From: Ruminococcus sp.
GTDB lineage: Bacteria > Bacillota > Clostridia > Oscillospirales > Ruminococcaceae
DNA length: 64,000 bases
Direction of reading: 5' to 3'
Assembly (NCBI GenBank): GCA_015066815.1
Contig: SVNR01000005.1
Span: forward strand, 1-64,000
Position numbers and translations under genes: made by a program
Notes under the pieces: generated by a model
The model's input: only the letters and a program-made list of their open reading frames with translations
Database searches by the model: none
Told to the model about the DNA's origin: nothing
Part shown: positions 9,435 through 27,288 of the stretch, piece after piece
Layout of the letters: every line of letters begins with the position of its first letter
Numbering within the stretch: position 1 is the first letter of the stretch

Positions 9435-10001
9435 TCACATTCTGTTTATTTTGTTTATAAGCGACTTATAATAAATTTTCTTCTGCCTGATTAATTTTTC
9501 AAGCAGTTCTATTTCGGAGCGGGAAATATCATATAGGTCAACAACCTGTTTCTGACGTTCAAGTGTCGGTAATCTGATCTCGGTTTCTGCGACTGTACTT
9601 GGCTTGATTTGTTTCAGAGTTCCCATACAACTCATACGAAAAGCTTTTTTTATACACTCCTTGTTCAGATACCATGCTATGTATTTAGGAAGTACCAAAT
9701 TCTCATCTGCACGGATTATAACAAAATGAGAAGGTATAACAAGTCCTGTATACTCTTCATTGATGTATATGGCTGTATACGGATCAGATGTTTTTACAAT
9801 TACATCTCCTTTCTGAGTAAGATAATTGTTCGATAATTTTTCTGAAGCATAAAATTTTATAGTATGTTCTAATTCTATAGCATTATCGGAAACTGCTTTT
9901 AAATTTAACTGCCTGTATTCATAACCTTCGCTGCTGTTTTTGGTTTCCTTACGTGATAACACGAGTCCTGTTTTCACCGAAGCGATTTTATTCAGCTTCA
10001 T
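9435..10001 (-). CDS. HsdS-like protein with a single TRD
   Basis: MKLNKIASVKTGLVLSRKE...LPTLERQKQVVDLYDISRSEIELLEKLIRQKK; internal start at 10001 follows a good RBS (aggaggagtt on the minus strand), better than the 10181 start of the ORF track. Confidence 0.8.
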   Translation of the reverse strand: MKLNKIASVKTGLVLSRKETKNSSEGYEYRQLNLKAVSDNAIELEHTIKFYASEKLSNNYLTQKGDVIVKTSDPYTAIYINEEYTGLVIPSHFVIIRADENLVLPKYIAWYLNKECIKKAFRMSCMGTLKQIKPSTVAETEIRLPTLERQKQVVDLYDISRSEIELLEKLIRQKKIYYKSLINKINRM

Positions 10002-10244
10002 AACTCCTCCTAAAAATATTTTGTTTTGGTTTATATGTAACTTTTCGAGTTTAGTATAACACATAAAAAAAGATATGTCAATTATTTTCCGGAAATATTT
10101 CTGGTTATATTTATAATACAGAACAACACCCCATAACTTTTTAATAGTCACAGATGCAGTTTTCAACAAAATTACACACAAACTGTTGACAATGCTATAT
10201 CATAATGTTAAAATATAAAAAAACAAGCAGAACGGAGGATTACC

Positions 10245-13145
10245 ATGATTCACATTAAAAAAATCGCTTCTGCTCTTATCAGCACAGCTCTTATGCTTCA
10301 GTGTGCAGCTTCATTTCCGGTATCGGCTGTCGGAGAAAACGGAAATACAGTTACACATATAACTGCAGACTCTTACGGACAGATAGTCAGCGGAGCATTC
10401 TACAGAATCTCGCCGTGCAACAGTGAAAAGTATATAACGGCGGCTTCAGACAATACAGTGTGCCAATGGGAAGCGATTGCAGACAACACACAAAAATGGC
10501 AGATAATCAGCACGGGGAACGGATACTGCAAAATATTATCCGCTTCTTCTCCGTCACTTGCTGTAACTGTTGAAAATCAGGACAGCACAAACGGAAACAG
10601 GATGATACTTACCGAATACAGCGGGAAGCCTTCTCAGCATTTCCGGCTTAACCGTACAGGCAGCTGCTACTATATAACTGCCGAATGCTCAGGCAATGCC
10701 GCACTTGACGTATACGGACAAAGCAGTGAAAACGGCGCAGTTATCGACCAGTGGGACTACTGGGGCGGACAGAATCAAAAATTCTACATAATACCTGACG
10801 GCAGTGAAGGCGTTGTTTCGTTCGGGGATATGAACGGAGACGGAAAAACAAATATCATAGACAGAATTCTTCTTGAAAGCGGCTGTCAAAACGGATTTGA
10901 CGATATTTCTGCCTCTATAGCAGATCTTAATAACGACGAAGAAAACGATTTCAAGGATATAACTGCCATGAACGAATATTTTTTCGGAATAACAGGGGCA
11001 GTAAACAGTACGTTTGAAACAAAAAAAGATCAGACTGCGTATCTGTTTGCATATTTTCTCGGAAACGATCCGTCACAGGAAAGACTGTCATATGCTGTAA
11101 GTACCGACGGATATAACTTCAAAGCACTCAATAACGGAAACGCTGTATGGAAATCCGATGTAGGCACAGGCTGTATAAGAGACCCTTACATCTTCAAGGG
11201 AGAAGACGGCTTTTACTATCTGCTTGCAACCGATATGAAATCCTCTCTCGGCTGGAGCAGCAACAGAAATATTATAAGCGCAAAATCAACCGATCTTATA
11301 AACTGGACAGATGTCACTCTTATCGAAATATCCGGCAAATACCCCTCCATGATGGGTGCAGACAGAGCATGGGCTCCTCAGGCAATATACGATCCTGAAA
11401 AAAATTCGTACATGATCTACTGGGCAAATCGTTCTTCCGAAACAGGAAGCAGAACAATAATGTACTATGCATACAGCAGTGATATGAAAACCCTGGATAC
11501 CCAGCCTTCTCTTCTTTTTGCCCCGGCAAACGGAGACTGTGCAATAGATTCGGATATAATTTTCCATAACGGAAAATATTATATGTATTATAAAAACGAA
11601 ACAAACAAAAGAATATATCTCGGAACCTCCGAGCATGCAAGCGGTCCGTATACCGAGGTAAAACAGATATCCGAAGGAAACCTCGGCGTTGAAGGTCCGA
11701 ACATATACAACATTGTCGGAACAGACAGCTGGCTCCTTATGTCTGACGCATACGGAAACGGCTACTATGTGATGCAGAAAACAGATGACCTTGAAAACTT
11801 CACTTCAGTAAGCAGAAACGACTACAGCTTTGACTTTACGCCAAGACACGGTTATGTTATACCTATAACAAACGAACAGTACACAGAGCTTGTAAAAGCA
11901 TTTCCTTCATCATCAGTAACACCGCACAGCATAGAAACAGAAACAGCAATGATCACAGCAGACATCGGTGAAACAGTATCTCTTCCTGAAGAGGTAACAG
12001 TAAAATACTCCGACGGAAAAGAAATCGGATATCCTGTAGAATGGAACCATGATGAGCTTTCAAAGATAAATAAAAATAAAAAAGGAATATATACTGTTTC
12101 AGGAAATGTACAATACAAAAACTATAACGACCCGTTCATAGAGGAACGTGCAGACCCTTATATAGTTGACGGGGAAGACGGGTATTATTATTTTACAGCC
12201 TCATATCCTGCCTTTCAAAATGCCGATAACGGATATGACCGTATAATACTCAGAAGAAGCAGTACTGTCGAAGGGCTTGCAAAGGCAGAAGAAAAAACGA
12301 TATGGAAAGCACATAGCAGCGGAATACTTGCCAAGCACATATGGGCTCCCGAAATGCACAGGATAAACAACGTATGGTATATGTTCTTTGCGGCAGGAAG
12401 CAGCAGTAATGTATGGGCAATAAGGCCATATGTCCTGAAGTGTGACGGAGACCCATACACAGGCAACTGGACAGAATGCGGTCAGATGCAGGCGTCATAC
12501 GGAGATACTGAATCTTTTGCAAACTTTTCTCTTGATATGACTTACTTTGAGCACAACGGAAAGCACTATGTGATATGGGCAGAAATAAAAGGGGATTCGT
12601 CTCTTTTTATGGCTCAGATAAATCCTGATGAACCATGGAAGCTTATATCTAAGCCTGTTTTGCTGACTAAACCCGAATACAGCTGGGAAAAAGTAAATAA
12701 CAGAGTAAACGAAGGAGCGGCTGTACTGAAAACAGATTCAAAGATATATGTCTTTTTCTCTGCATCAGGAACGGGCTCAGAATACTGCGTAGGAAGACTT
12801 GAAGCAGATACCGGTTCAGAGCTTATGAATGCTTCAAGCTGGAAAAAAATCACTTCACCGGTACTTCAGACTTCAGATCTTGACGGACCAACAGGACCCG
12901 GACACAACAGCTTTGTTACGGATGAAAACAATAACCTTCTTCTTGTTTACCATGCCCGTCCGTCTTCTCACGATTCAGAACAATGCGGCTCATACTGTAA
13001 AGATCCGCTCTATGATCCATGCCGTCATACACGAATAAAAAAAGTTTTCTTTGATAAAAACGGTGTGCCTGTTATAAACATGAGCACACAGAAAGAGCTT
13101 GCCTCAGCACACCGGACTGTTACAGCAATTATAAAAATAGGTTAA
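10245..13145 (+). CDS. secreted multidomain glycoside hydrolase: signal peptide, ricin-B/CBM13-like, dockerin, two GH43-like domains
   Basis: 966 aa; signal peptide; QW repeats (CQWEAI, IDQWDYWGGQNQKFYI); dockerin GDMNGDGKTNIIDRILLES..ADLNNDEENDFKDITAMNEYF; GH43-like blocks CIRDPYIFKGEDGFYYLLAT and ADPYIVDGEDGYYYFTASYP..HIWAPEMHRINNVWYMFFAA. Confidence 0.88.
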   Translation: MIHIKKIASALISTALMLQCAASFPVSAVGENGNTVTHITADSYGQIVSGAFYRISPCNSEKYITAASDNTVCQWEAIADNTQKWQIISTGNGYCKILSASSPSLAVTVENQDSTNGNRMILTEYSGKPSQHFRLNRTGSCYYITAECSGNAALDVYGQSSENGAVIDQWDYWGGQNQKFYIIPDGSEGVVSFGDMNGDGKTNIIDRILLESGCQNGFDDISASIADLNNDEENDFKDITAMNEYFFGITGAVNSTFETKKDQTAYLFAYFLGNDPSQERLSYAVSTDGYNFKALNNGNAVWKSDVGTGCIRDPYIFKGEDGFYYLLATDMKSSLGWSSNRNIISAKSTDLINWTDVTLIEISGKYPSMMGADRAWAPQAIYDPEKNSYMIYWANRSSETGSRTIMYYAYSSDMKTLDTQPSLLFAPANGDCAIDSDIIFHNGKYYMYYKNETNKRIYLGTSEHASGPYTEVKQISEGNLGVEGPNIYNIVGTDSWLLMSDAYGNGYYVMQKTDDLENFTSVSRNDYSFDFTPRHGYVIPITNEQYTELVKAFPSSSVTPHSIETETAMITADIGETVSLPEEVTVKYSDGKEIGYPVEWNHDELSKINKNKKGIYTVSGNVQYKNYNDPFIEERADPYIVDGEDGYYYFTASYPAFQNADNGYDRIILRRSSTVEGLAKAEEKTIWKAHSSGILAKHIWAPEMHRINNVWYMFFAAGSSSNVWAIRPYVLKCDGDPYTGNWTECGQMQASYGDTESFANFSLDMTYFEHNGKHYVIWAEIKGDSSLFMAQINPDEPWKLISKPVLLTKPEYSWEKVNNRVNEGAAVLKTDSKIYVFFSASGTGSEYCVGRLEADTGSELMNASSWKKITSPVLQTSDLDGPTGPGHNSFVTDENNNLLLVYHARPSSHDSEQCGSYCKDPLYDPCRHTRIKKVFFDKNGVPVINMSTQKELASAHRTVTAIIKIG

Positions 13146-14033: not shown

Positions 14034-15344
14034 TTATGATTCAAATTCGCATGAAAGCTTTTCGCTTAACTTTTCCTTTAACTCTATAACTGCATTTGCA
14101 ATAACAGGATCGAAGTGTTTTCCGGAATCTTTTTTTATGATTTCCAGTGCTTCTTCAACAGGAAACGCATCTTTGTAGCAACGCTTTGAAACCAGTGCGT
14201 CAAAAACATCGGCTGCTGCCATTATCCTTGCGCACAGAGGTATTTCTTCTCCGGCAAGGCTTTTCGGGTAACCGCTTCCGTCCCATTTTTCATGATGTCC
14301 GATAACAACGTTTGTTATAATATCACGGTATTCGGGTCTTTCAAGCTGAAGCTTTCCAAAGATTTTCCTTGTCATCTTTTCGCCTTCGGTAGTATGGGTT
14401 TTTATTATATCAAACTCCTCAGGTGTAAGCTTTCCCGGTTTTCTCAGTATGCTGTCCGGAATAGCTATCTTTCCGATATCGTGCATAGGTGCCGCTCTTT
14501 CGAGCATATCAATAAATCCGTCTGTTATCTCATCTGTATAGTGTCCGGTTTCTCTGAGATGTACAGCTATCATTTTTACGTATTCGCTTGTACGCTGAAT
14601 ATGATTTCCTGTGTCATTATCACGGGTCTCGATAACTGAAGCCATACCTCTTACGATAATATTGAGGTTTTGTATCTTCTGCTCCTTTTCAGCTATTATG
14701 CCGGATGCGAGCGTTTTGTTTCTTTCCTCAAGATCCTTTGATCTTTTTATATCTTTAATATATGAACTGGTTCTCGAAAAAACCATAAAGAAGTTAAGTA
14801 TCAGAAAAGTATATGCATTAAACAGTACAGGAGTTCCGTAGGTTGATTTTATTACCGGAGACATTATCAGCATAGTAGCCGTCTGAAGAAGAGCTATACT
14901 TACCGGGCATATATGAAACACCAGAATAGTAATCATTGAAACACATGTAAAAACCATATATGCGTTTATCGGATGATGACTTCCGTAACACAGAAATATA
15001 CATTCACAGAACATAAAAGAAAACGTAGTATAAGCAGCAATGTTTTTGTGAAGCTTCGGAAGTTTATCCTTTGTTATTTTTCTGATATACAAAAGAGCAA
15101 ACAAACAATAAGTGGCAAGCGTAGCATAATAAAAGCAGTCCGCTCCGCTCATTGCAACACAGGTCATGAGTTGTGCTCCTGTCACATAGCACAGCAGATA
15201 AATAACACAGCATATGAACGAAAAAATAAAGAGCGGTATCAGAGCAACCTTAAGATACCTGAAGTTCTGTTCAGCTACTTCTTCGGAAAATTCGTCGGGC
15301 ATGCGATATTTTTCTCTGTATTTTTTTTTGTATTTTTCTAACAT
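14034..15344 (-). CDS. membrane-anchored HD-GYP-type phosphodiesterase
   Basis: 436 aa; multiple TM N-terminus, then DNDTGNHIQRTSEYV..PMHDIGKIAIPDSILRKPGKLTPEEFDIIKTHTTEGE..GHHEKWDGSGYPKSLAGEEIPLCARIMAAADVFDAL. Confidence 0.92.
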   Translation of the reverse strand: MLEKYKKKYREKYRMPDEFSEEVAEQNFRYLKVALIPLFIFSFICCVIYLLCYVTGAQLMTCVAMSGADCFYYATLATYCLFALLYIRKITKDKLPKLHKNIAAYTTFSFMFCECIFLCYGSHHPINAYMVFTCVSMITILVFHICPVSIALLQTATMLIMSPVIKSTYGTPVLFNAYTFLILNFFMVFSRTSSYIKDIKRSKDLEERNKTLASGIIAEKEQKIQNLNIIVRGMASVIETRDNDTGNHIQRTSEYVKMIAVHLRETGHYTDEITDGFIDMLERAAPMHDIGKIAIPDSILRKPGKLTPEEFDIIKTHTTEGEKMTRKIFGKLQLERPEYRDIITNVVIGHHEKWDGSGYPKSLAGEEIPLCARIMAAADVFDALVSKRCYKDAFPVEEALEIIKKDSGKHFDPVIANAVIELKEKLSEKLSCEFES

Positions 15345-15471
15345 ATCAAATTGTGTTCTTCACAAGTCACTCCCCTCGCGATTTCTCTATGATATATACA
15401 TATTTTATCACAAAAAAAAACGATAGTCAACAAAATCGACAAAATTAGATTAAATTTTAAAGATGGATATT

Positions 15472-15508
15472 TATAGTGAACTCAAAAAAATATTTTTCGT
15501 TTACTATA
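15472..15508. repeat. palindromic intergenic repeat, copy 1
   Basis: tatagtgaactcaaaaaaatatttttcgtttactata. Confidence 0.75.
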
Positions 15509-15518
15509 TTTCTGTCAC

Positions 15519-18500
15519 TTATACCTCCAGATAGCCTGTCTTTCTGAAATACTCAATGTATTTTTTCAGATATGAAAAATCAATGTCACTCCATTCAAAG
15601 CCAAGCTTCTTAAGATACTCAACCGTAAAATCATTTTCAATACGAATATTGCTGTCATAGCTTAGCTTTTCGTTTTCATCCATATCATTGATAAACGTTT
15701 CAAAAATATGCTCCATATCACTTTGCACTGCAGCAGACCTGAGTGCCTTGCCAAACGTTTCACCGCTTACGATCCTGAGCTTAATGCCGAGCTTTGTGAG
15801 ATGATCATAGAGCTTAAACATATACACGACTTTTACACTGTTTATATGGAAAACTGTCTTCCTGCTGTCAAAGCTTCTTGCAATAGTCATCACTGCTTGT
15901 GCAGCTTCATCAACAGGAGTAAACTCTGCATATAAATCCATAAGATAATCAGGTATCATGCCAAGCTCAAGAACCGAACGTACTCTTTTCAAAAATGCAT
16001 TTGATTCATGATTTTTCTGGAATAAACCATCTGAAAAACGATTTGTGAGATTACCCATTCTCATGATATTTGCCTGCAAACCGTCTGCAACAGCTTCAAG
16101 TACTTCAAGCTCAGCTATAAACTTACTGCGTGAATACACATTTTCAAGCGGCTGTCCTATATACAGACTGCTTTCTGAAAAATGCTTTACAGTTTCGCTT
16201 ACGTAACCGTCAAACTCATCTGCAAAAGAGTTACCCGAAACACTGAGCGTCGAAATATGTATAAGTCTTGCATCTGATTTTTTACAGAACTCTATAAGCT
16301 GTTTTGTCGTTTTTACATTTGTATCATAAAAATATGTATATAAACCATAATGCTTTACGCTTGCCGCTGAATTTACAACAGTACTTACAGAGCGGCCAAG
16401 CTTTTCATATTCATCATCAGACAAGCCGAATTTTTCTTTCTGAAGATCTGCGCAGATAACTTCTATACGCCTGTTATTAAGATACTTATCATCAAAGTAA
16501 AACTCAAGCAGCTCATCAAGACGTTTTTTACTGTCATCAGTATTGTTTCCACGCACAAGACAATAGGCCGTGCCTGTATCATTTTCAAGAAAATCAGAAA
16601 GTATATGAATACCAAGATAGCCCGTTGCGCCTGCAAGAAGAAGATTGCCGACTTCTGTTTTTTCCGGCTCTGTTATAAGCTCAGTCCTGTTCTTTTCAAG
16701 CACAGAAGAAATCTTTGAAAAATCATAATCTGCAAAAGATATTTTTTCTCTTTTACTATTCTGAATGAATTCACATAACTCTCTGACTGTCGGATAATCA
16801 AACACATTCTGAAGACTAAAGTATATTCCTTCATTATGCGCCGCTGATACATATTCGATAGCTCTCAGACTATCTCCGCCTATATCAAAGAAATCATCTG
16901 TAACACCGGTTTTTTCAACTTCAAACAGCTGTGCAAGTATGTTGCAAAGCTTGATCTCTGTCTCAGCTGCAGGTGCGATATATTCCTGATGTGATACTGT
17001 AAAATCAGGCAGCGGCAGATTCCTTCTGTCCGTCTTTCCGCTTGCTGTCACCGGAATTTTATCAAGGTGCACAAAGTAGCCCGGAACCATATATTTCGGA
17101 AGCTTTGCCGATAAATACTGACGTAATGATTTTTCATCAATTTCTGTTTTAGCTGTGTAATATCCGACAAGATACTGCCTGTTTTTTTCGTCACGCTTAT
17201 CTGTAACAGCCGTCATGTTTATACCGTCAAACGCACTCATAATACTTTCTATTTCGCCAAGCTCGATACGAAGTCCGCGGATTTTTACCTGTGTATCAAT
17301 TCTGCCGAGATACTCGATATGTCCGTCAGCTCTCCAACGTGCAAGGTCTCCTGTGCAGTACATAATTTTGCCTGATGACGGATTTAATTTTTCGTCATAG
17401 AACGGATTCTGAATAAACTTTTTGGCTGTAAGCTCAGGTCTGTTCAGATACCCCTTTCCGACACCGGCTCCGGAAATACATAACTCACCCGCAACGCCGA
17501 CAGGGAGGGGGTTTTTATGCTGATCGAGAATATAGACCTGAGTGTTTGCAATAGGTCTGCCGATGGTAATATCAATGTTATTTACATAAGAATTTGTTGA
17601 CCAGACTGTTGTTTCTGCAGGACCATAAATATTATAAATCTCTGCTTCTGTACAGCCTGATAATTCCTCATACAGATCAGCCGGTAACGCTTCACCGCCA
17701 AGAATAATAGTTTTCAGTTTCTTAAGATAATCAAGATTATTTTTGTCAAGCATATATCCGCGCATTTTTGTGGGCGTTGTCTGCATTATGTCAATCTGAT
17801 TGTTTTCAATTAATAAAGCAAGCTTATTCTGTGAAGCTGCTTCGTCGTCATTTGTAAAATAAACGGTCAAGCCATGTAAAACAGGCACTATGCTTTCAGT
17901 TACAAAAATATCAAACACAAAATTTGTGACCGAAACAATACTCTCCTGTCCTTTATCGAGTATGTTTTTAAAAACTATATTTTTCGAATTTTTATCTGCA
18001 TAATTTCTTACAGCAAAATGAGTCTGCATCGTCGCTTTAGGTTTGCCTGTAGATCCGGATGTTGTAATGAGATAACACAGATCATCCGGTGTATTGCAGT
18101 TTTCCAAAGAATATGTATTTTTACTGTAGTCAAAGGTTTCAAGTGCTGTTGTGTCTGTTATGATTTTTTCCTCATAGCCGAAGGTTAAAGCAGTCTTTGC
18201 ATCAGCCTCTTCAAGCATAAACAGAATTCTTTCCTGAGGATATGACGGATCAACAGGCATATATGCACCGCCGGCTTTTAATATACCAAGCATAGCTACG
18301 ATGATATGCCAGCTTCTTTTGGCGATAACCGGCACAATATCGTTTGGCATTATATCCTTTTCATTACGCAGATAATTCGCAAGGGAATCAGACATTTTAT
18401 CAAGATGCTTATATGTAAACTGCCTGTCCTCAAACACAAGAGCTGTTTTGTCAGGTGTTTTTGCTGCCTGTTCCTTAAAAAGCTCATGAATACATTTTTC

Positions 18501-21500
18501 ATCAGGATGATCAACGTCTGTATCATTAAAATCAAAGATCACCTTCTTGTATTCCTCATCATCAAGAATAAATATATCAGAAATATTCTCCGTTTCAAGC
18601 TGTTCAAGTATCAGAGTATATGCTTCAAAGAGCTTGTTTATCAGTATTTCCTCATACTTTCCGCTGTTGTATTCAATTCTTACAGCACAACCGTTTTCAA
18701 TCGGAGTCATCTCAAATGTAATATCAAACTTTGATGTGTGAGTATCAATAAACTCAGGAACAAGCTCTGTTTCACCCATATACAGCTTCTTTTCGCCGTC
18801 CGCCTGATACACAAAAGAGGTGTTTATGACAGATTTGTCCGTCATTCCTGTATCCTCTGCAATCTCTGTAAACGGCAGCTCCTGATACTCAAACATATTA
18901 AGCAGGGTATCTCTGAGCACTTCAAAAAACTCTGACGTTTTACCGGATGCATTCATAAACACCGGAAGCGTATTTACAAACATTCCGACAATATCCTGTG
19001 TTTCCTTATGAGTACGGTTTGTCAGCATAACGCTTGTGAGAACTTCAGGTTTTGCTGTATATTTTGAAAGAAGTATTCCGAATGCACCGAGAAACAGCAT
19101 TGTATCGGTAAGTCCGTTTTTGTGTGCGTATCTTTTTGCGTTTTCAAAAACAGCCTTGCTGATGCTGTAGATTTTTGAAACACCCTCAGAGTCTGTCTTA
19201 TTTTTCTTTTCCGGCAGTACTATCGGCTCAGGATCATATTTTAACATACTCCTGTAAAACGCTTTATGCCCGGAAAAATCAATGCTTTTAAAATATTCCG
19301 CATAATCTGCATACCTGATTTTTTCTGAAGCTGTTTCTGTTCCGATATACAGCTTTGCAAGGTCACTCAGAATAATATTCAGAGATTCACCATCTGCGAC
19401 AATATGGTGCAGATCAAACAGCATTGAGGTTTCTGTAAAGCCGATACGCATAAGCGGCGCCTGTGACAAATCAAACGGACGTACAAAATCCATATAGTTT
19501 TCATCAGTATATTCTTCAAAAACAAGCTCTGCATTTTCATTGATGATACCGAAAATATTCCCGGCTTCTGCTGAAATATATGTACGCAAGGAACTGTACT
19601 TTTTAATGATTTTTTCAAAGCAGGCCTTGATTTTATCCCTGTCTGTGTCCGGAGGGATAAAAATACGTGCCGGCATATTATAGGTCAGAGTGTGGTTTTT
19701 TTTACTGCACACAGCATAAATTGCCTTTTGCTGCGGAAGAAGTGAATATTTGTTTACGCCTGCTGAGGTAATTTTACCCGGTTTCTTTCCGGATTTTTCA
19801 ATGCATTCTGCAAGATTTTCAAGCACAGAATTTTCAAGAATATCCTTCATTGAGACATTGACATTAAACTCGTTTTCGATATAGCCAAGCAGTGTGATCG
19901 CCATAAGGCTGTCACCGCCAAGCTCATAAAAATCATCGTACCTTCCGACTTTTTCAAGCTTCATAAGTGTACTCCAGAGCTTTGAAAGTCTTATCTCCGT
20001 TTCAGTTTCAGGAGCAGCATATTCTTCTTTTGATACAGTAAAATCAGGCACAGGAAGATTTTTTCTGTCCGTCTTACCGCTTGAGGTCAGAGGCACTTCA
20101 CTCAGATGAACAAAATAGTTCGGTATCATGTACTTAGGCAGTTTTGCTGATAAGTGCTGACGCAATAACTTTTCATCTATCTTTGTTTTTGCTGTGTAGT
20201 AACCTACAAGATACTGCCGGTTGTTTTCATCACGCTTGTCCGTAACAGCTGTCATGTTTATTCCGTCAAACGTACTCATAACGCTTTCGATTTCTTCGGG
20301 CTCAATTCTTAAACCGCGAATCTTGACCTGTGAGTCAATTCTGCCGAGATACTCGATTTCTCCGTCTGCCCTCCAGCGTGCAAGATCACCTGTACAGTAC
20401 ATGATTTTTCCTGCTGTCGGATTTGTTTTTTCGTCATAAAAAGGATTTTTGATAAAACTTTCTGCTGTGAGCTCAGGTATGTTAAGATAGCCCTTTCCGA
20501 CTCCGTCACCCGAAATACACAGCTCGCCTGCAATTCCGACAGGTAAAGGCTTTTTGTACTTATCGAGTATATATATCTGTGTGTTTGCAATCGGTCTGCC
20601 GATTGTAATATCTGTTTTATCTGTAATTTTTTTAAACGAAGCACCTATCGTTGTTTCAGTTGGTCCATAGCCGTTATAAATTATTGCGTTTGTATACTTC
20701 GAGATAGTGTTATATATCTCACCTGTAAATACCTCTGCGCCAATCATAAGCACCTTAAGCTTCCTTACGGCCTTCTGAAAATTTTCATTATTCAGAAACG
20801 TAAGAAATTTTGTTGGTGTGCTGTGAACAACATCAATGTCATTTTCTATAATTAGCTTCGCCAACAATTCAGCTGACAGATTTTCTTCTTCATCAGACAG
20901 AACAACCCTGAGTCCATTGATAAGAGACAGAAAAATCTCAAAGACTGATATATCAAACGAAAATGTTGTCAACGCCAGAACTGTATTGCATAAATTTACC
21001 ATATCCCGCTGATAAACATTGCTCTGATTATTTTTATCAACGAAGTTGCTCAGATTGTTATGAGAAATCATTACAGCTTTAGGCTTGCCCGTTGAACCAG
21101 AAGTAAACAGAACGTAGCATTTATCATCCGGATAGTTTATGTTTGTGACAGCTTTACAGAAGCTATTGTAATCAAAAGCCTCAAGACAGATAGCCTCAAC
21201 CGGAAGGTTTCCTGTATATCCGCATACAAGCGCTACCTTTGCACCTGCTTCCTTGAGCATATATTCTATTCTGTCTGACGGATATGACGGATCTACAGGC
21301 ATGTATGCACCGCCTGCTTTCATAACACCGAGCATCGCAGTTACGAAGTGCCGGCTTCTTTTTGAAATAATCGGTACAATATCATTTTGTCTGATTCCTT
21401 TTTCCTCACGCAGATAATGCGCAAGAGAATCTGACATCTCATCAAGCTGCTTGTAGGTAAGCCTCTTATCCTCAAAAACAAGTGCTGTTTTCCCGGGAGT

Positions 21501-22874
21501 TTTCATTGCCTGCTCACTGAACAGCTCATGAATACACTTATCCCTTTTTGATTCTGAGGATGTGTCATTAAAAGCCAGGACAACCTTCTGATATTCTTCC
21601 TCCGGAATAATATCGATATCACAAACAGTAATATTATGATTTTCTATAATCTGATCGATTATCAGCATTAATCTGTCGGTCAGCATAGAGATTTCTTCTG
21701 AATCAGGAAATACTTCTGTCTGATAATCAGCATTCAACGTATAGCTCTCCGCACTGTCACGATTGTCAATATGCAGAGAAAACGGAATTTCGCTGTAGCC
21801 ATTTGAAAACCACCGGGTTTTTATATCTTCGTCTGTTTTCGCATTCTGAAAGCTTACAACTACATCATACATGCTTCCTTCAAACTGATGCTTCTGACGA
21901 ACCTGTGAAACGATCCTGCTGTAAGGGTATTTCTGATGTCTGAACAACCTGCTGTGCGTATCGGTTATCCTTCTGATTAACTCATAAGCTGTATCTCCGG
22001 CACTGATATCAATAGTAAGCGGTATTGTTGAAATAAACATACCTACTGTTGATTTTTCTCTTTTGTTCTTACGGTTCAGCACCGGAACACCGATTGTGAT
22101 ATATTTGTTTTCGGGATTTATCTTCGACAGATATACCAATACCGCTGTTTCAAAAAGTACTGCCTGTGAAATCCTGCTTTCATTGCAGTATGTATTTATT
22201 TTCGCAGTTTGTTCAGGGGATAAAAGCTTTGTGAACCTCCGGGCCTTTGGTACTGCAGCAGATGTATTTTTCATCTTAACCGGACTGCTTTCAGGTTTGT
22301 CAGAGTATACTTCGTTCCAGTAAACTTCATCTTTTCTGAATCTTTCAGAATCGAGATATTCCTTTTCTGAATTTACAAATTCAGCATAATCATACATCTG
22401 ATTTTCGGATAATGTACCTTTTTCAAATTCAAGAATTAAATTATATACTCCTTTTGCAAGCAGGCTGAATGTCCAGGCATCTGAAATCAGATGACTCAGG
22501 CACGACAGGATCCCTGATTCTCCATTCAGTTCAAAAATAACAAAACGATACATAGAAGAGTTTTTCATTTCAAATGGCGTCAACGCAAAGCTCTTAGCAT
22601 ATGTTTCAAATTCTTCTTTGCTTTTAAACTGAATAAAAGTGTAATTTTTATCAGTATATTCTTCCGTATACTGACATACTTCACCGTTTATCTCATCAAA
22701 CTGCATCCTCATTCCTGCCTGCAGCTCTATGAATCTGTTCAGTGCCTTCCTTGAAAAATCAGCATCAATTTTTCTTCCGAAAAAAACTGCTCCGCACAAG
22801 TTTGATATGCTTGTATTCCCGAACGTTTTCTGCAGATTCCATATGTTATGCTGTGGTGTTGTCAAACTATACAT
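15519..22874 (-). CDS. dimodular nonribosomal peptide synthetase C-A-T-C-A-T with terminal thioester reductase
   Basis: 2451 aa; C1 SHLISDAW, A1 LFTSGSTGKPKAV, T1 LGGDSLMAI, C2 HHIVADG, A2 TTSGSTGKPKA, T2 IGGDSLRAI, R-domain LLLAGATGYLGIHIL and YSRSKF (YxxxK). Confidence 0.95.
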   Translation of the reverse strand: MYSLTTPQHNIWNLQKTFGNTSISNLCGAVFFGRKIDADFSRKALNRFIELQAGMRMQFDEINGEVCQYTEEYTDKNYTFIQFKSKEEFETYAKSFALTPFEMKNSSMYRFVIFELNGESGILSCLSHLISDAWTFSLLAKGVYNLILEFEKGTLSENQMYDYAEFVNSEKEYLDSERFRKDEVYWNEVYSDKPESSPVKMKNTSAAVPKARRFTKLLSPEQTAKINTYCNESRISQAVLFETAVLVYLSKINPENKYITIGVPVLNRKNKREKSTVGMFISTIPLTIDISAGDTAYELIRRITDTHSRLFRHQKYPYSRIVSQVRQKHQFEGSMYDVVVSFQNAKTDEDIKTRWFSNGYSEIPFSLHIDNRDSAESYTLNADYQTEVFPDSEEISMLTDRLMLIIDQIIENHNITVCDIDIIPEEEYQKVVLAFNDTSSESKRDKCIHELFSEQAMKTPGKTALVFEDKRLTYKQLDEMSDSLAHYLREEKGIRQNDIVPIISKRSRHFVTAMLGVMKAGGAYMPVDPSYPSDRIEYMLKEAGAKVALVCGYTGNLPVEAICLEAFDYNSFCKAVTNINYPDDKCYVLFTSGSTGKPKAVMISHNNLSNFVDKNNQSNVYQRDMVNLCNTVLALTTFSFDISVFEIFLSLINGLRVVLSDEEENLSAELLAKLIIENDIDVVHSTPTKFLTFLNNENFQKAVRKLKVLMIGAEVFTGEIYNTISKYTNAIIYNGYGPTETTIGASFKKITDKTDITIGRPIANTQIYILDKYKKPLPVGIAGELCISGDGVGKGYLNIPELTAESFIKNPFYDEKTNPTAGKIMYCTGDLARWRADGEIEYLGRIDSQVKIRGLRIEPEEIESVMSTFDGINMTAVTDKRDENNRQYLVGYYTAKTKIDEKLLRQHLSAKLPKYMIPNYFVHLSEVPLTSSGKTDRKNLPVPDFTVSKEEYAAPETETEIRLSKLWSTLMKLEKVGRYDDFYELGGDSLMAITLLGYIENEFNVNVSMKDILENSVLENLAECIEKSGKKPGKITSAGVNKYSLLPQQKAIYAVCSKKNHTLTYNMPARIFIPPDTDRDKIKACFEKIIKKYSSLRTYISAEAGNIFGIINENAELVFEEYTDENYMDFVRPFDLSQAPLMRIGFTETSMLFDLHHIVADGESLNIILSDLAKLYIGTETASEKIRYADYAEYFKSIDFSGHKAFYRSMLKYDPEPIVLPEKKNKTDSEGVSKIYSISKAVFENAKRYAHKNGLTDTMLFLGAFGILLSKYTAKPEVLTSVMLTNRTHKETQDIVGMFVNTLPVFMNASGKTSEFFEVLRDTLLNMFEYQELPFTEIAEDTGMTDKSVINTSFVYQADGEKKLYMGETELVPEFIDTHTSKFDITFEMTPIENGCAVRIEYNSGKYEEILINKLFEAYTLILEQLETENISDIFILDDEEYKKVIFDFNDTDVDHPDEKCIHELFKEQAAKTPDKTALVFEDRQFTYKHLDKMSDSLANYLRNEKDIMPNDIVPVIAKRSWHIIVAMLGILKAGGAYMPVDPSYPQERILFMLEEADAKTALTFGYEEKIITDTTALETFDYSKNTYSLENCNTPDDLCYLITTSGSTGKPKATMQTHFAVRNYADKNSKNIVFKNILDKGQESIVSVTNFVFDIFVTESIVPVLHGLTVYFTNDDEAASQNKLALLIENNQIDIMQTTPTKMRGYMLDKNNLDYLKKLKTIILGGEALPADLYEELSGCTEAEIYNIYGPAETTVWSTNSYVNNIDITIGRPIANTQVYILDQHKNPLPVGVAGELCISGAGVGKGYLNRPELTAKKFIQNPFYDEKLNPSSGKIMYCTGDLARWRADGHIEYLGRIDTQVKIRGLRIELGEIESIMSAFDGINMTAVTDKRDEKNRQYLVGYYTAKTEIDEKSLRQYLSAKLPKYMVPGYFVHLDKIPVTASGKTDRRNLPLPDFTVSHQEYIAPAAETEIKLCNILAQLFEVEKTGVTDDFFDIGGDSLRAIEYVSAAHNEGIYFSLQNVFDYPTVRELCEFIQNSKREKISFADYDFSKISSVLEKNRTELITEPEKTEVGNLLLAGATGYLGIHILSDFLENDTGTAYCLVRGNNTDDSKKRLDELLEFYFDDKYLNNRRIEVICADLQKEKFGLSDDEYEKLGRSVSTVVNSAASVKHYGLYTYFYDTNVKTTKQLIEFCKKSDARLIHISTLSVSGNSFADEFDGYVSETVKHFSESSLYIGQPLENVYSRSKFIAELEVLEAVADGLQANIMRMGNLTNRFSDGLFQKNHESNAFLKRVRSVLELGMIPDYLMDLYAEFTPVDEAAQAVMTIARSFDSRKTVFHINSVKVVYMFKLYDHLTKLGIKLRIVSGETFGKALRSAAVQSDMEHIFETFINDMDENEKLSYDSNIRIENDFTVEYLKKLGFEWSDIDFSYLKKYIEYFRKTGYLEV

Positions 22875-23128: not shown

Positions 23129-24361
23129 TTACCTTCTTGCATTTGCGAGCATAAGCTTTATTCTGTTTTCCTGGTTTACCTTGGTAGCACCCGGATCATA
23201 GTCTATAGCTACTATATTTGCGTCGGGGAACGCCTGTTTTATTACTCTTGCCATTCCCTTTGCAACTATGTGATTCGGAAGACATCCAAAAGGCTGTGCA
23301 CATATGATATTCTCTGTACCGGATGCGGCAAGAGCTGCCATTTCGGCAGGAATAAGCCAGCCTTCGCCCATTTTTACGCCCTGATGTATATACTTGTCGC
23401 ACTCACTTCTCAGATGCTCAAAATCATGAGGCGGTTCAAAAACACCATGTTTTTTTATTATGCTTATCATCTGCTTCTGTTTTGCATAGATAACGTCATA
23501 GCCTATCTTAAAAAGCCTTGTTGTCTTGTTCTTGAAGCCGTATATCCTGCCGTCGTTTACTGTATTTACTGCACAGTAAAGCACAAAATCAAGAAGTGAC
23601 GGAACAACCGGCTCACAGCCCTCGCTTATAAGAAAATCTTCAAGATGATTGTTGGCAAGAGGAGAATATTTTACGTATATTTCTCCTACTATTCCTACTT
23701 TTATTTTTTTCTTCTTGCTTCGTTTTATTTTTGCAAAATCATCGAGTATGAGCTTGTAGTTCTTCGCAGTACCCATAAACTTGTTGCCTGAAAAGTTTTC
23801 GTTAAGAATATTTTCCCACTTCTTAAGTACCTTGTCGGATTCGCCGGGAATAAGCTCATACGGTCTGCACTGATTATAGAGAAGCATCAGGATATCTCCG
23901 TAAAGAACGGCATACAGAAGCTTCATGATTATAGGAGCATTCAGCTTGAAGCCGCCTTCCTTTTCGAGTCCGCTGAAGTTCAGTGATATAACAGGAACCT
24001 GAGGATACTTTTCCTTCAGAGCTTTTCTGAGAAGATGGATATAGTTTGAAGCACGGCATCCGCCTCCGGTCTGAGTGAGCATAAGAGCTGTTTTATCAGG
24101 ATCATATTTGCCGCTGTTTAATGCCTCCATAAACTGACCTATAACAAGCAGGGCAGGGTAGCATGTATCGTTATGAACGTTTTTCAGGCCTTCGTCTATA
24201 ACCGTCTGTGTAGATGTACGCAGAAGCTCCATTTTGTAGCCGCTGCTGCGAAGAATACTTATGATGAGACTGAAGTGTATAGGCAGCATATCAGGGACGA
24301 GAATAGTATGCGTTGCCTTCATATCATCAGTAAAAATAGGGTACTTTGCCAATTTGCTCAC
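23129..24361 (-). CDS. 2-hydroxyacyl-CoA dehydratase-like protein (activase-associated family)
   Basis: 410 aa; DTCYPALLVIGQFMEAL, GGGCRASNY, CAQPFGCLPNHIVAKGM resemble the family that partners large acyl-CoA dehydratase activases. Confidence 0.75.
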   Translation of the reverse strand: MSKLAKYPIFTDDMKATHTILVPDMLPIHFSLIISILRSSGYKMELLRTSTQTVIDEGLKNVHNDTCYPALLVIGQFMEALNSGKYDPDKTALMLTQTGGGCRASNYIHLLRKALKEKYPQVPVISLNFSGLEKEGGFKLNAPIIMKLLYAVLYGDILMLLYNQCRPYELIPGESDKVLKKWENILNENFSGNKFMGTAKNYKLILDDFAKIKRSKKKKIKVGIVGEIYVKYSPLANNHLEDFLISEGCEPVVPSLLDFVLYCAVNTVNDGRIYGFKNKTTRLFKIGYDVIYAKQKQMISIIKKHGVFEPPHDFEHLRSECDKYIHQGVKMGEGWLIPAEMAALAASGTENIICAQPFGCLPNHIVAKGMARVIKQAFPDANIVAIDYDPGATKVNQENRIKLMLANARR

Positions 24362-24369
24362 TCCTTAGT

Positions 24370-27288
24370 TTATTCGGATGCTGCCATAAGGCTTCTGAGT
24401 CTTATTTTTGCCGCTCCGAGATTGCTTATCTCGTCTATCTTAAGCTGTGTGTACAGCTTGCCTCTTTTTTCAAGAATAGCTCTTACCTCATCTGTAGTTA
24501 CAGCGTCTATGCCACAGCCGAATGATACAAGCTGAACAAGCTGCATATCATCGTTTCTGGTAACATACTCGGCAGCCCTGTACATTCTTGAATGGTAAGT
24601 CCACTGATTGAGTACATCAAGGTCAGGCATATTTCCGAGCTCGCATATACTGTCCTCTGTGACTACTGCCATGCCGAGACTTGTTATAAGCTTGTTTATA
24701 CCGTGGTTTATTTCCTTGTCTATATGATATGGTCTTCCGGCAAGAACTATTATCTTTTTTCCTTCCTCACGGGCTCTTGCGATTATTCTGAGAGCTTCTG
24801 AAGAAACATCCTTACGGAATTTCATAAGAGCCTCAAAACCGCTTTCGAGAGCCGCGAGAGTCTGCTTGCGGGAAATACCGTACTCCTTAAGTAAATCAGC
24901 CATAACAGCCGCAACGTGTTCTTTTCTGTTAGGATCAATGTATGGATTTTTGAAGTTACTGTCGTTAAGCTCCGGAATATTTGCCTTGAGAAGCTCAGGA
25001 TAATATGCTACCACAGGACAGTTGTAGTGATTGTCTGTTTCCGGCTCTTCAATGTTGTAGCTCATACACGGATAAAAAATAAAATCAATATTTTTTTCGA
25101 GAAGATCGGAAATATGTCCGTGAACAAGCTTTGCAGGATAACATACCGTATCTGACGGAATAGTCTGCTGTCCCTTATAGTACATATCTCTTGAGCTTTC
25201 ATCAGAAATAATCACTTCAAAGCCCAGTGAAGTAAAGAACTTAGCCCAGAGAGGAAGCTGTTCAAAATAACTTAAAACCATAGGTATGCCTATTTTTGCT
25301 TTTGGAGCTCCCGCAGGCTTTAAGGAGGTTTTCATAATAAGATCATGCTTATACTCATAAAGACATATATCGTCAGTTGTACGTTTCTTTCCTGCACCCT
25401 TTTCACACTTGTTTCCCGAAATATGCTTTTCTCCGTTGGCAAATGTGACCATGTTAAGATTGCACTTTGCAGTACAGCCGCCGCACTGAAACGCCTTTGA
25501 CTTATATGAAAAGCTTTCTATTTCACTGCTTCCTATTATCGAGGAGCCGCCGTGTGTATTTTCCTTCGCATAGAGCGCTGCTCCGAAGGCACCCATAAGC
25601 CCTGCTATAGCAGGACGTGTTACATTTCTTCCGAGTTCCTTTTCAAACGAACGAAGAACTGCATCGTTTAAGAAGGTACCGCCCTGAACTACTATGTTTT
25701 CACCAAGATCCGAAGGGGACTTGGCTCTTATAACCTTGTATATGGCGTTTTTGATTATCGAAGAGGAAAGTCCTGCTGATATATCCTCAACTGTTGCTCC
25801 GTCCTTCTGAGCCTGCTTTACACTGCTGTTCATAAACACGGTACATCTTGAACCGAGATCTACCGGATTTTCTGCAAACAGACCAAGGTTTGAAAAACGT
25901 GCAATATCATATCCGAGTGCCTGCGCAAATGTCTGTATAAACGAACCGCATCCCGATGAGCATGCCTCGTTTAACATTATACTGTCAATAGCACCGTTTT
26001 TTATCTTGAAGCACTTGATATCCTGACCGCCGATATCTATTATAAAATCAACATCAGGACAGAAAAATGCCGCTGCCTTATAGTGAGCAACTGTTTCAAC
26101 AATACCGTGATCTATATGCAGACCTGCCTTTATAAGCTCTTCACCATAGCCTGTTACTGCTGAACCGGCTATTTTTATACGGTCTCCTGAAAGCCTGTAT
26201 ATCTCTCCGAGTTTTTTGGATATCCTGTCAAGCGGCTGCCCCTTGTTTGATGCATAGTACTGATAAAGAAGCTTTCCCTCAGGAGTGATAAGAGCGATCT
26301 TTGTTGTCGTAGAACCCGCGTCTATTCCGAGATATGCGTCTCCCGTATAGCTCTCTATGCTTTCGTACTTAAGATCGTTCTGAATGTGACGCTCTATAAA
26401 CTTTTCGTACTCTGCTCTGTTTACAAAAAGTCTTTCACCGGTTACAACGTTCTCAGTTGTCTTTGCGTTTTCTATACGGTTTATTATTTCGTCCGCGGTA
26501 AGACGTCCGCTCTCGCTTTTTTCGGCAAAAAGTGCTGAACCAAAGGCTACAAAAACAGGTGCTTCTTCCGGAAAACAAGCTGTCCTGTCATCAAGAGACA
26601 GAGTTTTTACAAAAGCGTTTCTGAGTCCCTTCTGGAAGAAAAGCGGTCCTCCGAGAAAAAGTACGTTTCCGCTTATTTTTCTGCCCTGTGAAAGTCCTGC
26701 AACAGTCTGGTCCACAACAGCCTGAAATATACTTGCGGCTATGTCCTCACGCTTTGCTCCCTGATTGAGAAGAGGCTGGATATCTGACTTTGCAAACACA
26801 CCGCATCTTGAAGCGATAGGATACACCTTCTGAGCGCTCAGTGCAAGCTTGTCAAGCTCGTCAGTAGTTATTCCGAGAAGAGTTGCCATCTGGTCTATAA
26901 AAGCACCCGTACCTCCTGCACAGGAACCGTTCATTCGCTGTTCAACTCCGCCTGTGAGAAAAATTATCTTTGCGTCCTCGCCACCGAGCTCTATTACTGC
27001 ATCAGTATCCGGATAGCTCTCTTTAACTGCTATAAAAGCAGCGTTTACCTCCTGAACAAAAGGGAGATCTGCAGCGTTTGCAAGTCCGAGACCTGCTGAA
27101 CCTGTAACTGCAAGTCTGAAGGCTGCGTCAGGGTATTTTTCTTTTATTATTTTTATCTGTTCCGAAACAGTTTCTCTTACTTTGGAAAAATGTCTCTGAT
27201 ATTTTGAATAAACTATCGTTTTGTTTTCATCCGTTATTACAGTCTTAACAGTAGTAGAACCTACGTCTATTCCCAAAGAATAATTCAT
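24370..27288 (-). CDS. large acyl-CoA dehydratase activase-like protein (two BcrAD/BadFG ATPase domains plus DUF2229-like region)
   Basis: 972 aa; two actin-fold phosphate-1 motifs LGIDVGSTTVKTVI and LGIDAGSTTTKIAL, NGSCAGGTGAFIDQMA and NEACSSGCGSFIQTFA; C-terminal VPSDTVCYPAKLVHGH-like region. Confidence 0.9.
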   Translation of the reverse strand: MNYSLGIDVGSTTVKTVITDENKTIVYSKYQRHFSKVRETVSEQIKIIKEKYPDAAFRLAVTGSAGLGLANAADLPFVQEVNAAFIAVKESYPDTDAVIELGGEDAKIIFLTGGVEQRMNGSCAGGTGAFIDQMATLLGITTDELDKLALSAQKVYPIASRCGVFAKSDIQPLLNQGAKREDIAASIFQAVVDQTVAGLSQGRKISGNVLFLGGPLFFQKGLRNAFVKTLSLDDRTACFPEEAPVFVAFGSALFAEKSESGRLTADEIINRIENAKTTENVVTGERLFVNRAEYEKFIERHIQNDLKYESIESYTGDAYLGIDAGSTTTKIALITPEGKLLYQYYASNKGQPLDRISKKLGEIYRLSGDRIKIAGSAVTGYGEELIKAGLHIDHGIVETVAHYKAAAFFCPDVDFIIDIGGQDIKCFKIKNGAIDSIMLNEACSSGCGSFIQTFAQALGYDIARFSNLGLFAENPVDLGSRCTVFMNSSVKQAQKDGATVEDISAGLSSSIIKNAIYKVIRAKSPSDLGENIVVQGGTFLNDAVLRSFEKELGRNVTRPAIAGLMGAFGAALYAKENTHGGSSIIGSSEIESFSYKSKAFQCGGCTAKCNLNMVTFANGEKHISGNKCEKGAGKKRTTDDICLYEYKHDLIMKTSLKPAGAPKAKIGIPMVLSYFEQLPLWAKFFTSLGFEVIISDESSRDMYYKGQQTIPSDTVCYPAKLVHGHISDLLEKNIDFIFYPCMSYNIEEPETDNHYNCPVVAYYPELLKANIPELNDSNFKNPYIDPNRKEHVAAVMADLLKEYGISRKQTLAALESGFEALMKFRKDVSSEALRIIARAREEGKKIIVLAGRPYHIDKEINHGINKLITSLGMAVVTEDSICELGNMPDLDVLNQWTYHSRMYRAAEYVTRNDDMQLVQLVSFGCGIDAVTTDEVRAILEKRGKLYTQLKIDEISNLGAAKIRLRSLMAASE

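Follow-up and report, generated by a model that had tools for sequence, protein, structure and literature searches.

Non-ribosomal peptide synthetase (NRPS) products known from the gut include the N-acyl Leu-Glu aldehyde ruminopeptin as well as N-octanoyl-Met-Phe-al (PMC8518294, PMC12327764). The acyl dipeptide aldehydes of gut Clostridia have so far been known as protease inhibitors, and, according to a review, the aldehyde may be stabilised by an N-acyl tail (PMC8210680). The window analysed here, a stretch of 64,000 nucleotides from Ruminococcus sp., carries a dimodular NRPS gene which, as judged from its sequence, probably makes an N-acylated dipeptide aldehyde. The kind of product is thus already known, and the gene would encode a further acyl dipeptide aldehyde synthetase.

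The gene is a single intact ORF of 2451 aa that runs from ATG to stop on the minus strand; the plus-strand reading is riddled with stop codons. Pfam detects two Condensation, two AMP-binding and two PP-binding domains and one NAD_binding_4 domain, every score being far over the cut-off. Together with the motifs, these matches bear out the C-A-T-C-A-T-R order in one ORF given by the initial annotation. Its coordinates are exact, and the minus strand is added here. The features of the gene are as follows.

15519..22874, minus strand: dimodular reductive-release NRPS, C-A-T-C-A-T-R, 2451 aa (ORF, Pfam/NCBIfam domains, motifs)
21582..22874, minus strand: C1, starter-type condensation domain, SHLISDA (C-domain trees, 98/94 and SH-aLRT 95)
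20055..21521, minus strand: A1, adenylation domain, code DIFHMGGIGK (Pfam; code by motif alignment)
19785..20012, minus strand: T1, carrier domain, LGGDSL (Pfam, motifs)
18594..19754, minus strand: C2, LCL-type condensation domain, HHIVADG (trees; best PDB matches TycC and LgrA)
17016..18512, minus strand: A2, adenylation domain, code DITQIGIVWK (code by motif alignment)
16770..16982, minus strand: T2, carrier domain, IGGDSL (Pfam, motifs)
15522..16697, minus strand: R, terminal thioester reductase with Thr-Tyr-Lys motifs (NAD_binding_4 3.3e-44, alignment, motifs)

A motif scan located SHLISDA of C1 at residue 127 and the canonical HHIVADG of C2 at residue 1156, both as initially read. Both A-T modules keep their A motifs and intact carrier serines (LGGDSL at residue 985 in T1, IGGDSL at residue 1998 in T2). 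The protein ends, without a thioesterase, in an R domain that retains its cofactor and Thr-Tyr-Lys motifs: GATGYLG at residue 2082 and YSRSK at residue 2247, which correspond to the GATGYLG and YxxxK noticed earlier, and STLSV at residue 2208. The A1 and A2 domains are 61% identical in protein sequence, with DNA stretches 75-78% identical, a likeness that points to gene conversion or to duplication within the gene. The A1 code could not be assigned to a substrate, and the residues of the product are not predictable with confidence. The A2 code, which is identical at loci L026, L027, L090, L093 and L095, resembles the published glycine code and gives a weak prediction that A2 is Gly-like.

Since C1 is of the starter type and C2 of the LCL type, an N-acyl dipeptide aldehyde is the likeliest product. 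In the proposed route, a PPTase encoded elsewhere in the genome would arm both T domains, and C1 would attach a fatty acid, drawn from CoA or ACP, to the amino acid that A1/T1 has loaded. C2 would then join the acylated residue to the amino acid loaded by A2/T2, and R would reduce the thioester with NAD(P)H, releasing an aldehyde whose capped N-terminus would keep it linear, without closure to a pyrazinone. An Sfp-type PPTase of 237 aa is encoded on contig C34 of the same genome. The initial interpretation stands in part: the dipeptide aldehyde formed by reductive release is backed by the domain order, the motifs and the relatives, and the acyl cap, raised there as a side remark, is the better reading, while the pyrazinone-type product is not favoured because, with a starter-type C1, the ring-closing amine is probably acylated.

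The types of the two C domains were assigned by phylogeny, a check that the initial annotation had proposed, which places C1 on the starter-type side and C2 on the LCL-type side. In a tree of 46 C domains from relatives, obtained by a careful search, C1 nests among C domains that are N-terminal or stand-alone (98/94), and C2 groups with internal domains. A quick search on 97 C domains including references repeats the split: C1 lies with starter-type N-terminal domains (SH-aLRT 95), and the structurally solved starter domain RzmA-Cs joins the side of C1, the LCL domains TycC-C6 and LgrA-C that of C2. RzmA forms a long branch in the 97-domain tree, and its placement alone is therefore weak proof. 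When C1 is compared with PDB entries by plain similarity, its nearest matches are the LCL domains of TycC and LgrA, not starter domains. The stronger argument for a starter type is position, as the closest kin of C1 are N-terminal domains that have no upstream carrier in the chain. They include single modules from the same genus, in which C-A-T is fused to PlsC and the C domain is N-terminal, with no upstream module in the protein.

In C1, a serine replaces the first histidine of HHxxxDG. The same variant recurs in relatives, as SHLI(A/S)DAW in L093, L094 and L095 and as SHLISDAW in the C-A-T-PlsC proteins of L026 and L027, and is not a mark of decay; the idea that C1 is inactive was set aside because the variant is conserved. 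In other C-A-T-C-A-T-R proteins of the same family (L064, L065, L068, L071), the N-terminal C domain clusters with internal domains, and these proteins probably receive their chain from another protein. Because the N-terminal C domains split in the tree, the C-A-T-C-A-T-R architecture comprises two kinds, and the window gene belongs to the acyl-starting kind.

The C-A-T-PlsC proteins of the window's genus (L026:7960-11736, L027:7746-11630, L028:7185-11069) each consist of a single module fused to a PlsC-type acyltransferase (PF01553). Their A code equals that of the window A2 in L026 and L027 and differs by one residue in L028. Such synthetases possibly make N-acyl amino acid lipids, perhaps of glycine, by an NRPS-type route.

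Relatives were found by a contig search with R-domain alignment; a single-protein query had given none. The full-length relatives L093 and L095, both from Lachnospiraceae MAGs, match the domain order along the whole protein, and in both an AMP-ligase gene lies directly 3' of the NRPS, an arrangement that fits acylation; L093 has a PPTase gene there as well. AMP-ligases also stand beside the NRPS in L089-L092. No AMP-ligase or acyl-ligase gene adjoins the NRPS in the window. The description of the gene as stand-alone thus holds for biosynthetic genes, as the NRPS adjoins neither a PPTase gene nor one for a transporter or a tailoring enzyme. The closest relatives, however, have AMP-ligase and/or PPTase neighbours, and the description overlooked an HD-GYP gene immediately downstream.

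Ligase homologues occur in the window genome on contigs C27, C79 and C83 among others; the best candidates are distant, and two lie beside stand-alone C domains. A second NRPS able to feed the N-terminus was not found in the window genome, whose only other C-domain matches are the two stand-alone domains on C27 and C79. These two proteins (G000:C27, L003 and L177; G000:C79, L004 and L178) are starter-like and adjoin AMP-ligases, and C27 also encodes a carrier protein. Among the other loci, one Oscillospiraceae MAG carries tandem reductive NRPSs of 3452 and 2425 aa that are separated by an AMP-ligase (L090:824-11179 and L090:13801-21075). A further reductive NRPS contig (L143) is assigned to the archaeon Candidatus Methanofilum arcanum, which may reflect transfer or misbinning.

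Two features were recorded downstream of the NRPS.

14034..15344, minus strand: membrane protein whose C-terminal part is an HD-GYP domain (motifs HDIGK and GYP); candidate functional partner (Pfam HD_5 4.4e-35)
15402..15430, minus strand: promoter-like site TTGACT-17-TAAAAT with extended -10, upstream of the HD-GYP gene (consensus match; the scan overall is not above chance)

The HD-GYP gene begins 175 bp downstream of the NRPS on the same strand and encodes 436 aa. The N-terminal half of the protein is hydrophobic and probably spans the membrane, and the HD and GYP motifs are intact. Congeners match this protein mainly in its HD-GYP part, and for its 235-aa N-terminal sensor region the 298 other family genomes contain no homologue. 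AlphaFold modelling from one sequence gave a mean pLDDT of 44 and no usable fold. A palindrome present in both NRPS flanks was considered as a common operator and rejected as a dispersed repeat: the A/T-rich GTRAACGAAAAAWATTTTTT at window positions 15481-15504 has 143 genome matches with at most 2 mismatches, against 1 in a reversed control.

Upstream of the NRPS, the gene pair at 23129-27288 is 77-93% identical in congeners. In six congeners, some of them with short flanks, no gene of the window interval 1035-22874 was found beside this pair, and the NRPS and HD-GYP genes therefore lie in a variable region. The same region contains type I restriction-modification genes accompanied by an additional specificity-like ORF (9435-10181), a GH43 gene (10245-13145) that includes a ricin-type lectin and matches dockerin weakly, and DUF3592.

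In relatives, the gene after the NRPS very often encodes a 7TM-sensor histidine kinase (PF16927), followed by a response regulator with HD-GYP output. The association was counted across Clostridia at loci with at least 3 kb of downstream sequence, a kinase and/or HD-GYP gene being scored within 6 kb. It was present at 26 of 29 loci with a starter-type C1 as opposed to 2 of 33 whose NRPS begins with an LCL-type domain or with an A domain (Fisher 6e-12, kinship ignored). Within the window's family, an HD-GYP gene stands at the NRPS in 8 of 9 starter-type genomes (0.12 expected) and in none of the 11 genomes with other reductive NRPSs. In G281, G130, G206, G183 and G129 it is the sole HD-GYP gene of the genome; in the ninth starter-type genome, G197, the contig stops just past the kinase. 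No report linking HD-GYP proteins or two-component systems with such NRPSs was found in a literature search whose scope excluded most subscription journals.

The pair of 7TM kinase and response regulator with HD-GYP is conserved downstream of the starter-C reductive NRPSs of L096-L124, L133, L147 and L072-L081, where an AMP-ligase is often present too, at some loci on the opposite strand.

At the window NRPS, the PF16927 kinase is not among the neighbours, and the sensor region of the window protein has no detected homology to the 7TM region of the kinases. Both kinase and HD-GYP are absent at L090, L091 and L093, the nearest relatives with enough flank, so the link is only suggestive for the window.

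There are two accounts of the biological role of the product. The chances are about even that it mainly inhibits proteases of a host or competitor and that the HD-GYP neighbour is a coincidence of the variable region. This account concerns function, not product, and is compatible with an acyl dipeptide aldehyde. Known compounds of this class inhibit cathepsins and proteasomes (PMC8518294), the NRPS and HD-GYP genes are unshared with congeners, and the three close relatives named above have no HD-GYP gene. Coincidence is harder to reconcile with a genome that has only two HD_5 genes, one of which adjoins the NRPS, since the chance of an HD-GYP gene as immediate NRPS neighbour is then ~0.002, and with the association of the HD-GYP class with starter-C reductive NRPSs across Clostridia.

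The other account, which we regard as possible but favour less, is that the neighbouring HD-GYP protein, a predicted c-di-GMP phosphodiesterase, senses the product or acts together with it. By analogy, starter-C reductive NRPSs, that of the window included, might make fatty-acyl dipeptide aldehyde signals read through HD-GYP, an NRPS counterpart of DSF/RpfCG quorum sensing; this broader proposal is put forward equally tentatively. The window would represent a one-component version, with a membrane sensor fused to HD-GYP. The window combines a starter C domain with HD-GYP, but the missing kinase, the unrelated sensor and the three negative relatives keep a signalling role at this locus below an even chance. 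That HD-GYP proteins are tightly linked to the acyl-starting subtype of reductive NRPS suggests a testable role inside the producers, namely c-di-GMP control. If this is true, a class of molecules studied for what it does to the host would prove to be a signalling system of bacteria.

As to the product itself, it is improbable that C1 is vestigial and that, as in the case of AusA, the dipeptide aldehyde is released uncapped and closes to a (dihydro)pyrazinone. Many gut dipeptide aldehydes do cyclise (PMC8210680), C1 has SHLISDA in place of HHxxxDG, and AusA is the best NCBIfam match by score (1468.8 bits). That score, however, is far under the curated cut-off of 2500, C1 is full length and groups with starter-type domains, its variant motif is kept in relatives, and ring closure needs a free amine, which the acyl cap would remove. 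Four-electron reduction is known for some R domains of the superfamily, such as that of MxcG, which is also among the NCBIfam matches of the protein. Two successive reductions by R, releasing an N-acyl dipeptide alcohol, are nonetheless the least probable outcome, as the characterised gut enzymes of this kind yield aldehydes (PMC8518294, PMC12327764).

The N-acyl dipeptide aldehyde reading places the window NRPS alongside the ruminopeptin synthetase (rup) of Ruminococcus bromii and BGC0001686, which makes N-octanoyl-Met-Phe-al, both N-acyl dipeptide aldehyde NRPSs of gut Clostridia (PMC12327764, PMC8518294). Likened by description rather than by sequence, all three would begin with an acyl group, add two amino acids and release the product by reduction, and the window A codes lend no support to Leu-Glu, as in rup, or to Met-Phe, as in BGC0001686. 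AusA/PznA, the aureusimine synthetase, is likewise dimodular and ends in an R domain through which a dipeptide aldehyde is released (PMC8210680). That aldehyde goes on to form pyrazinones by cyclisation. The window NRPS has an N-terminal C domain and scores well short of the AusA cut-off, and AusA is not known to have an acyl-loading start.

The Clostridia loci L080, L101, L106 and L110 resemble the window in their starter-type C1, reductive release and nearby HD-GYP. They carry a 7TM kinase and a response regulator with HD-GYP, in contrast to the window, which has neither kinase nor receiver domain and whose HD-GYP is a one-piece membrane protein with a sensor region unrelated to their kinases. 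In the DSF system, a kinase (RpfC) and a response regulator with HD-GYP (RpfG) read a fatty-acid signal. By analogy rather than homology, with an NRPS in the place of the synthase RpfF and the window having no kinase, the related loci would likewise pair a fatty-acyl product with a sensor kinase and a response regulator with HD-GYP, as RpfF/RpfC/RpfG do for DSF.
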